A DNA stretch of 64,000 bases from Fimbriimonas ginsengisoli Gsoil 348 (GTDB lineage: Bacteria; Armatimonadota; Fimbriimonadia; Fimbriimonadales; Fimbriimonadaceae): NCBI RefSeq assembly GCF_000724625.1, contig NZ_CP007139.1, positions 3,534,001 through 3,598,000 on the forward strand. The letters run 5' to 3'. The position numbers and the translations under genes were made by a program. Under the pieces are notes generated by a model. That model made no database searches. It saw only the letters and a program-made list of their open reading frames with translations, and was not told the origin of the DNA. Numbering within the stretch: the first letter of the stretch is position 1; every line of letters starts with the position of its first letter. Below are positions 26,287 through 62,802 of this stretch, piece after piece.

Positions 26287-26296
26287 CCTATGAAGG

Positions 26297-26420
26297 GCGA
26301 AGCGTTGTAGCCGCAGGTTGGCTCGTACCTGCGTGGGAGCGTCTCGTTTTCAGAGAAAGCTTGTGGATCGTTGAGGTTTGTCGCGCAGGTACGAGCCAAC
26401 CTGCGGCTACAACGCTTCGC
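26297..26420. mobile_element. MITE-like element with perfect 37-bp terminal inverted repeats
   Basis: Left arm 26297-26333 and right arm 26384-26420 are exact reverse complements over 37 bp, separated by a 50-bp non-coding centre. A second, diverged copy with the same arms is at 49790-49975, and a solo arm at 62590-62622. No transposase is encoded. It could be a non-autonomous transposable element or a large REP-type element. Confidence 0.6.
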
Positions 26421-26651
26421 GTTACCATTCCCCAGCAAACCCGGGAGTGCTCGACCCAAAGCCCCACAGCCTTGTCGCGGCCAACACGGCCGAACGATCG
26501 AAGGTGCGGACGAAGGGTTATCGCGGAATTATCTCTGGGCTACGGGTCGAATCAGACTCTTTGTGTCCGATGCGACAAAGCAGACTGTCCCAAGGGAAGA
26601 AGAGAGGCCTTATGGTCACCAACAAAATGGATTGACAATAGAGGTTCACCC

Positions 26652-26709
26652 GTAGCCCGGGGATTTATCCCCGGAGGAGCCTTGAACCGCGGCTAAAGCC
26701 ACGGGCTAC
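26652..26709. repeat. intergenic palindromic element
   Basis: Arms GTAGCCCGGGG...CCCCGG (26652-26674) and CCGCGGCTAAAGCCACGGGCTAC broken at 26687-26709 can fold into a compound hairpin. It lies 53 bases beyond the end of the convergent GHL10-like gene. Confidence 0.45.
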
Positions 26710-26761
26710 GGGCAAGATGAATGTCAACCCAATTTGTGAATGACCATCAGGCCCGACGAAA

Positions 26762-49648: not shown

Positions 49649-50025
49649 ACGTTTCGGTTCTTATTCGAATCCGCCCTGCCCTTCTCCGCCCCTGAGCCTA
49701 TTTATATGGCTGTGAAGGGAGGGTCACGCAAAGGCGCGGAGGCGCAAAGTGGGAGGCGAGATGTATCCGGTGTTGGTAGGGAACCTAACGCGGAGCGTTG
49801 TAGGCGCAGGTTGGCTCGTACCTGCGGGGGGACGTTTGGACCGATGGGGCGTTGTCGTGCGCGAGGCAACCGCAGGTGTGCGGAGAGCCGGACGTGGGAT
49901 GGAAGCGTTGGCGTAGCTGGTGTACTTCGTACACCAGGAGCAGGTACGAACCAACCTGCGTCTACACGGCTTCGCCGTAGGGATACGGTGGGGAGAGGGG
50001 GCTCCGGAGACTGGGCGGTGGGAGG
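49649..50025. other. gene-free gap holding dispersed repeats
   Basis: No credible gene. It contains the CTTTGCG-type motif in reverse orientation (49723-49747), the second MITE-like copy (49790-49975) and a G-rich tract (about 49988-50020) before the Wzz gene end. Confidence 0.6.
49790..49975. mobile_element. second MITE-like element (diverged copy)
   Basis: Arms 49790-49826 and 49939-49975 match the 37-bp arms at 26297-26420 with a few substitutions. The centre is longer (112 bp) and different, and includes the palindrome GTGTACTTCGTACACC at 49920-49935. No coding capacity. Confidence 0.55.
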
Positions 50026-62512: not shown

Positions 62513-62802
62513 CGCCGCGTTACCGGCGGATGAATCCCGGCCCCGATTGGGGCCGGAGCTACGTTTGGATCATGAGGCGTTGTCGCGTGGGTGCGAGCCA
62601 AGCTGCGCCTTCGCGGCTTCGCCCTGGCGGAGCCGCCTGCCTGGAGAGCAGCGGTCCAGGGTTGCGCGGTAGGAGACACGGGGTCGACCGGCTTTTTGGC
62701 GGCTCAATCGAGGCTCGGGCGGGGCTCGGTTTGCGGTAACGCGACTCCCGGTCGCACGAAAGATGGGCTTTTTTCGCCCTCTGCGATCTCGGAAGATAGG
62801 GC
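62513..62802. other. intergenic region with terminator-like hairpin and repeat remnants
   Basis: CCGGCCCC-GATT-GGGGCCGG hairpin at 62537-62556 ends the Arg-rich gene; a solo MITE arm lies at 62590-62622 and a degenerate GGTCTGGAGACC-family copy at 62632-62659. No other gene seen before the small ORF at 62803. Confidence 0.5.

Follow-up and report, generated by a model that had tools for sequence, protein, structure and literature searches.

A probable REPIN in Fimbriimonas ginsengisoli Gsoil 348, built from GTAG-tagged REP units with an additional outer hairpin

The closest described counterparts of the repeat reported here are the REPINs of Pseudomonas fluorescens SBW25. In the passages of the SBW25 report that concern their architecture, these are inverted REP doublets with conserved ends and a more weakly conserved spacer, they lie between genes, and a REP-associated tyrosine transposase (RAYT) gene is found beside copies; 71 bp separate the 16-mers of the GI doublets (PMC3116915). 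The sections of a 2013 study on GTAG-tagged REP families describe the GTAG tag, head-to-head dimers, an association with palindromes in some species, and hybrid dimers in Stenotrophomonas maltophilia (PMC3733652). On the enzymatic side, the portions of a third report dealing with cleavage state that the TnpA-REP of E. coli, which has HUH and tyrosine motifs, needs GTAG and cleaves at CT 5' or 3' of the REP, that for the enzymes of E. coli and Stenotrophomonas the cleavage site is a CT dinucleotide adjoining the REP, and that GTAG acts in the choice of the cut in a third system (PMC8266576; PDB 4er8).

The F. ginsengisoli repeat, which we call REP1, shares these features of the SBW25 REPINs, including the spacing, as well as the tag, the head-to-head dimers, the association with palindromes known from some species, and the hybrid dimers, here formed with another family, REP3. 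It differs from the SBW25 REPINs in belonging to another phylum, in carrying a second hairpin outside the GTAG with unlike alleles at the two ends, and in having a decayed cognate RAYT. Unlike in E. coli, where a bulged REP stem is partnered by an iREP that is not recognised (same portions of PMC8266576), the two cores are alike here, and it is the outer hairpin that distinguishes one end from the other.

The element was found in a stretch of 64,000 nucleotides, hereafter the window, with a G+C content of 60.9%; the published value for the strain is 60.8% (summary data in PMC4072686). The first-pass annotation had described positions 26297-26420 as a MITE-like element with perfect 37-bp inverted arms, and the arms are exactly as described: the first 37 letters equal those of the reverse complement. 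Each arm contains a REP unit, i.e., GTAGCC followed by a 20-nt hairpin that folds into a 7-bp stem with an 8-nt loop. Folded as single-stranded DNA, positions 26291-26426 are more stable than shuffled sequences by 13.7 SD on the + strand and 14.4 SD on the - strand. The window holds five REP1 units; a 27-nt query with up to 9 mismatches allowed yielded no others. The two relatives noted earlier are both among them, in modified form. The copy at 49790-49975 does have a different and longer centre, but its arms are similar rather than the same, with a different allele of the outer hairpin on the right; the arm placed singly at 62590-62622 is real but decayed, with its core at 62587-62612 (Table 1). 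At gathering scores, Rfam matched a tRNA and nothing else in the window. A further REPIN-like pair was seen at 26648-26717 (GTAGCCCGGGGATTTATCCCC.. and GTAGCCCGTGGCTTTAGCCGCGG..), about 230 bp from the element; its second half has 15+23 matches genome-wide against 0 for the control, and a copy of this repeat also lies near a Y1 gene at 2.311 Mb.

Table 1. Positions of REP1 features in the window
Feature	Position	Strand	Comment
Probable REPIN, family REP1 (element noted first)	26296..26423	.	two inverted REP units, spacer and outer hairpins
Left REP core, GTAGCC + hairpin	26307..26332	+	0 mismatches to consensus
Right REP core	26385..26410	-	0 mismatches to consensus
Left outer hairpin, shortened class A form	26296..26306	+	
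Right outer hairpin, class A form	26411..26423	-	in most copies, one end or the other is of a different class
Spacer, 52 nt	26333..26384	.	varies between copies
Mosaic REPIN	49787..49978	.	class A end, and end with class B outer hairpin plus extra GTGTAC hairpin
REP core of mosaic REPIN	49800..49825	+	1 mismatch to 26-nt consensus
REP core of mosaic REPIN	49940..49965	-	2 mismatches to 26-nt consensus
Extra hairpin CTGGTGTAC..GTACACCAG in mosaic REPIN	49917..49937	.	same kind joins REP1 to REP3 in hybrid dimers
Decayed single REP unit	62587..62612	-	6/26 mismatches

REP1 is repeated far beyond chance in this genome, a single contig of 5,231,762 bp. The arm core (GTAGNCGCAGGTTGGNTCGTACCTGC) has 118 matches (59+59) at up to 3 mismatches, against 0+0 for a reversed control pattern. 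The 124-bp element used as a query gave 113 alignments, many of which pick up a single copy twice, once per arm or once per strand. Units were read in 389,786 bases around most of the match places, which covers roughly nine-tenths of the genome's units. This sequence contains 115 units at up to 6 mismatches, 109 of them within 3 and 59 identical to the consensus. Head-on pairing with GTAG outward accounts for 82 of the 115 units, i.e., 41 pairs; among neighbouring units less than 300 bp apart, 41 of 42 pairs are head-on and one is tail to tail. The unit starts are 71-79 nt apart in 32 of the 41 pairs. The other 33 units were scored as single, although some (e.g., 1008461 and 4953414) have a more decayed arm opposite them. 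In a third layout, noticed by eye in about six copies, a single REP1 unit leads into a common tail (GGACAGYCCCGAAWGG...), e.g., at 121057, 1625145 and 5066738.

Mean pairwise identity in the 32 copies with the 71-79 nt spacing is about 95% for each 26-nt core and 62% for the centre, in agreement with the earlier remark that the arms are conserved and the centres variable. In about 8 of these 32 aligned copies, as read by eye, the spacer is reversed relative to the hairpins, as arm-to-arm inversion would give. Across 41 genomes, i.e., this one and 40 relatives, REP1 matched only its own genome and one congener (G019), the latter with a single match of 89% over 34 bases.

A second hairpin lies directly 5' of the GTAG in 96 of the 115 units; of 5000 positions drawn at random from this sequence, 14% have one. 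It mostly consists of a 5-bp or 6-bp stem with a 3-nt loop, and its commonest forms are AACGC..GCGTT (29 units), ACGGC..GCCGT (12) and ACGTCC..GGACGT (10). The stem co-varies: with the 6-bp class set aside, the other 94 units, counted whether or not they pair, have Watson-Crick pairs in 80% of cells, versus 58% when partners are shuffled (maximum 63% in 1000 shuffles), and the 42 distinct sequences of these units give 61% versus 44% (maximum 52%). For the 6-bp class alone (21 units), pairing of 85% falls inside the shuffle range (mean 81%, maximum 86%). Conservation extends beyond the hairpin. The base immediately 5' is T in 84/96, the hairpin starts with A after this T in 80/96, and the next two bases outward are C or T in 86/96 and C in 59/96. 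From five bases out conservation is slight, and we therefore place the edge of the unit there.

The two ends of a pair tend to carry unlike outer hairpins. Using the final bases of these hairpins, we defined three classes, which made 31 of the 41 pairs classifiable at both ends and left out 10. Both ends belong to the same class in 3 of the 31 pairs, where 11.6 are expected (none of 20,000 shuffles was as low); with class A set against the rest, the ends agree in 5/31 pairs versus 15.2 expected. The element at 26296-26423 is one of the three same-class pairs, and its left hairpin is shortened. In another, at 1475934, the left hairpin is half of one class joined to half of another, so that two of the three carry a shortened or chimeric left hairpin. 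The right half of the spacer of the 26296-26423 element is of the type that adjoins a class B or C hairpin in most aligned copies, and hence one arm was probably overwritten by the other. Thus, judging from these sequence comparisons, the perfect 37-bp arms suggest arm-to-arm conversion and not recent movement. The first-pass annotation had taken identical arms as a sign of recent activity or gene conversion; conversion fits, but recent activity does not follow, since the cores are nearly identical genome-wide and what is unusual in this element is its matching outer hairpins, not its matching cores.

Could the outer hairpin instead be a pre-existing target palindrome, beside which the REP inserted and which lies outside the mobile unit? 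Such an origin, which would compete with our reading of the outer hairpin only, has a precedent in the dimers and REPs called GTAG-15 and GTAG-23, respectively, which are inserted within palindromes according to the relevant sections of PMC3733652, and it would suit the outer-hairpin alleles that REP1 has in common with another family, REP2. We nevertheless regard it as unlikely, because each end has its own complete hairpin rather than one part of a palindrome split by the element, and because the end classes are paired non-randomly.

Some REP1 copies are hybrids with another REP family. The GTGTAC extra hairpin of the 49790-49975 copy also follows 12 of the 33 single REP1 units, and in a short string test 12 of the 33 (10 of them shared with the extra-hairpin set) face a REP3 unit. 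REP3 (GTAGCGTCGGCGCCCTCGCCGATGATCC) has 43+46 matches in the genome, with 0 for the control. Within 150 bp (28 nt, up to 3 mismatches) it accompanies 23 of the 74 REP1 elements (14/41 pairs and 9/33 singles), compared with 0.4% of 3000 control places. A near match to REP3 lies next to another RAYT-like gene, open and located at 1.983 Mb, which scores 70.3 bits with NF047646, below the cut-off of 80. REP2 has 38 matches (16+22). Four of them flank a related RAYT, at 2.102 Mb, in which the match continues in another frame; the outer hairpin is present in 24 of the 32 REP2 units read.

Related repeats occur in congeners. One of these (G010) has an open RAYT of the same clade as the F. ginsengisoli gene RAYT1 described below (46% identity), and the outer hairpin precedes 20 of its 22 units. 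For 8 of the 22, a different hairpin (AGCCC..GGGCT) is present no more than 205 nt away at a facing end, and a short string test placed no inverted copy of the same core opposite any of the 22. In G019, with a very similar REP core, the outer hairpin is found in 2/11 units, about the 14% level of the control, and therefore it is not general in the clade. Altogether, it is present in three REP families of the genus, with unlike ends in two of them. Between REP cores that adjoin related RAYTs, both strands of the stem have changed, with GCAGG/CCTGC here and GCCGG/CCGGC in G019; from sequence, such two-sided differences are as expected of REP-RAYT co-evolution.

The genome contains 13 Y1_Tnp matches. 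Only for the one at 4,202,836-4,203,096 did the surrounding 12 kb contain a REP1-like unit, with up to 7 mismatches allowed. This gene, RAYT1 (4.203 Mb), passes the NCBIfam model NF047646 REP_Tyr_transpos with 86.6 bits (cut-off 80) and matches TnpArep of PDB 4er8 with an E value of 3.4e-8. It is a truncated member, in which about 19-27 N-terminal residues are missing relative to six relatives; in place of the lost N-terminus there is now an inverted repeat of another kind, with 34-nt arms (CCCTCCCGACG family; L081:5714-5831). The PDHVHVLI and YIALNP motifs, which we take to serve as the HUH motif and the catalytic tyrosine, align with 4er8 and the same six relatives. About 70 bp after the stop lies a degraded REPIN, in which the REP has 6 mismatches, and the assignment of RAYT1 to REP1 is therefore partly by proximity. 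Some 3 kb beyond RAYT1 is a fragment, RAYT2, 81% identical to it over 53 residues and with a changed HUH motif; a REP1 unit with 1 mismatch ends 168 bp before the start of this match. A more distant relative (35%), RAYT3, is on the opposite strand and contains stops.

RAYT remnants and REP1 copies thus lie together at 4.203-4.206 Mb. REP1 does stand beside a RAYT gene, an association that is weaker than usual because the RAYTs are broken. With regard to the search for a matching transposase that the earlier annotation had suggested, the truncated RAYT1 and the RAYT2 fragment adjoin REP copies, but no intact RAYT for REP1 was found in the genome, and yet just over half of the units read (59/115) still equal the consensus. 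With RAYT1 truncated, RAYT2 a fragment and RAYT3 interrupted, the transposase of REP1 itself seems dead or impaired. Among 21 loci of RAYT relatives in named genomes, 13 are titled Armatimonadetes, Fimbriimonas or Fimbriimonadaceae and 5 are from other groups; the other 3 are titled as Methanoregulaceae isolate SJ84 but coincide, in both coordinates and contig number, with genome G046, which is assigned to the Fimbriimonas family.

The genome has other Y1 genes. Those at 1.574, 4.512, 2.311, 4.494, 0.019 and 2.983 Mb (L071-L075, L079) look IS200-type-like and have, by eye, flanking palindromes on both sides. The two tested, at 1.574 and 4.512 Mb, pass NF033573, and those at 2.311 and 0.019 Mb look near-identical. 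At 2,235,782-2,235,943 (L078), a Y1/RAYT-like domain lies in frame within an open frame of 561 aa, as if inserted with the frame preserved; the ends of this frame presumably resemble zinc alcohol dehydrogenase. A remnant at 2,936,183-2,936,302 matches only the C-terminal residues 95-134 of RAYT1, at 48%.

Perfect inverted arms, noted when the element was called MITE-like, would also suit a classical MITE, in which they are the terminal inverted repeats of a DDE transposon (e.g., IS630-like, with TA duplication) that has lost its transposase. The frequent TA at the ends (80/96) can be read as such a duplication, and the TA, as part of the ends, lies outside the reach of the following test of flanks. 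Both ends are defined in 27 of the 41 pairs, and in these, duplications of 2-8 nt outside the hairpins show no clear excess over shuffles: the largest, at k=3 with free shifts, is 7 versus 4.3 (32 of 500 shuffles as high), and duplications of at least 5 nt with shifts of at most 4 number 1 versus 0.87 in shuffles. Hence, of the two genome-wide signs that the earlier annotation looked to, the abundance of copies is borne out by the 118 core matches, whereas target duplications stay at the level of shuffles. Transposases of the RAYT class are not known to produce target duplications. Nor was a clean empty site recovered when the 41 joined flanks were compared with the 390 kb around the units. 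Three matches span the junction, namely the locus itself (4205826), 44 nt at 89% and 109 nt at 79%, the latter two in repeat-rich places. With no clean empty site and no duplication excess, movement is inferred from the number of copies, their confinement to this species and their linkage to RAYTs. The origin from a DDE transposon is very improbable: conservation continues outside the TA, no DDE_3 gene was found in the genome (the one DDE family searched), REP1 forms hybrid dimers with REP3, and its neighbours are RAYTs. The label MITE-like remains apt for a short, non-autonomous, many-copy repeat, but not in the classical sense of terminal repeats with target duplications, as the arms are GTAG-tagged, RAYT-linked REP hairpins.

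All 74 elements (41 pairs and 33 singles) are intergenic, as judged with a simple home-made gene finder on 390 kb that is 80% coding. Genes around 69 elements are converging in 26 cases, tandem in 34 and diverging in 9, and since converging gaps make up the same share (38%) of the intergenic length of this sequence, there is no orientation preference beyond available space. Although the intergenic sites, the very stable fold and the position of both of the window's pairs between converging genes would suit immobile 3' hairpins selected by the host as transcription terminators or mRNA stabilisers, we see next to no likelihood in that origin, given the mixed gene orientation, the absence of the family from the 40 relatives searched save for one weak match, and the fact that terminators need neither conserved GTAG tags nor long cores. 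A secondary role of the elements at the RNA level may still exist.

Taken together, the REP anatomy, the copy number, the head-on pairs, the intergenic sites, the lack of a duplication excess and the RAYT remnants adjoining REP copies argue strongly that the element at 26296-26423 is a REPIN, i.e., two inverted REP units that a RAYT, working on folded single-stranded DNA, dispersed among intergenic sites. The RAYT, an HUH transposase of the Y1 type, would bind the GTAG and the inner hairpin. Given the CT cleavage and the role of GTAG in other systems, the enzyme might cut at the CT 5' of the outer hairpin, which would bring that CT next to the GTAG guide, and two unlike outer hairpins could then mark the two ends. 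That the outer hairpin in this way lets the transposase distinguish left from right and positions the CT cut by the GTAG guide is a tentative proposal, to which we give less than even odds. In the element described here, overwriting of one end by the other would have produced the perfect arms. Because the cognate RAYT is truncated or broken, the family has probably stopped moving, unless a different RAYT still mobilises it.

REPINs and RAYTs are a known kind of system, and we found no earlier report of them from this phylum in the sources consulted. The text of PMC3733652 does not mention Armatimonadetes, Fimbriimonas or Chthonomonas, and in the sections cited we found no description of end-specific outer hairpins for GTAG-tagged REPs; the phylum is likewise unnamed in another REP paper searched. 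In the literature searched, no paper was found that joins Armatimonadetes with REPs or REP-associated tyrosine transposases. Among papers from 2022 on that name any two of REPIN, RAYT and Armatimonadota, none, judged by title and the start of the abstract, concerns REPs of that phylum. We found no description of the two-hairpin, end-specific architecture in the passages cited.

With REP1, the Armatimonadota join the REPIN/RAYT world, in a genome whose report, in its summary of mobile elements, counts only 12 transposase genes and states that known IS elements are lacking (PMC4072686). If the proposal above is true, the outer hairpin would be a mode of end recognition for which we found no description for REPs in the portions of the literature cited. 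The family also provides evidence, from naturally occurring sequences, on how a RAYT may choose its cut site and tell two ends apart, matters that the cited portions of PMC8266576 treat as unsettled. As for REP1 itself, it looks like a case of repeats outliving their own transposase.
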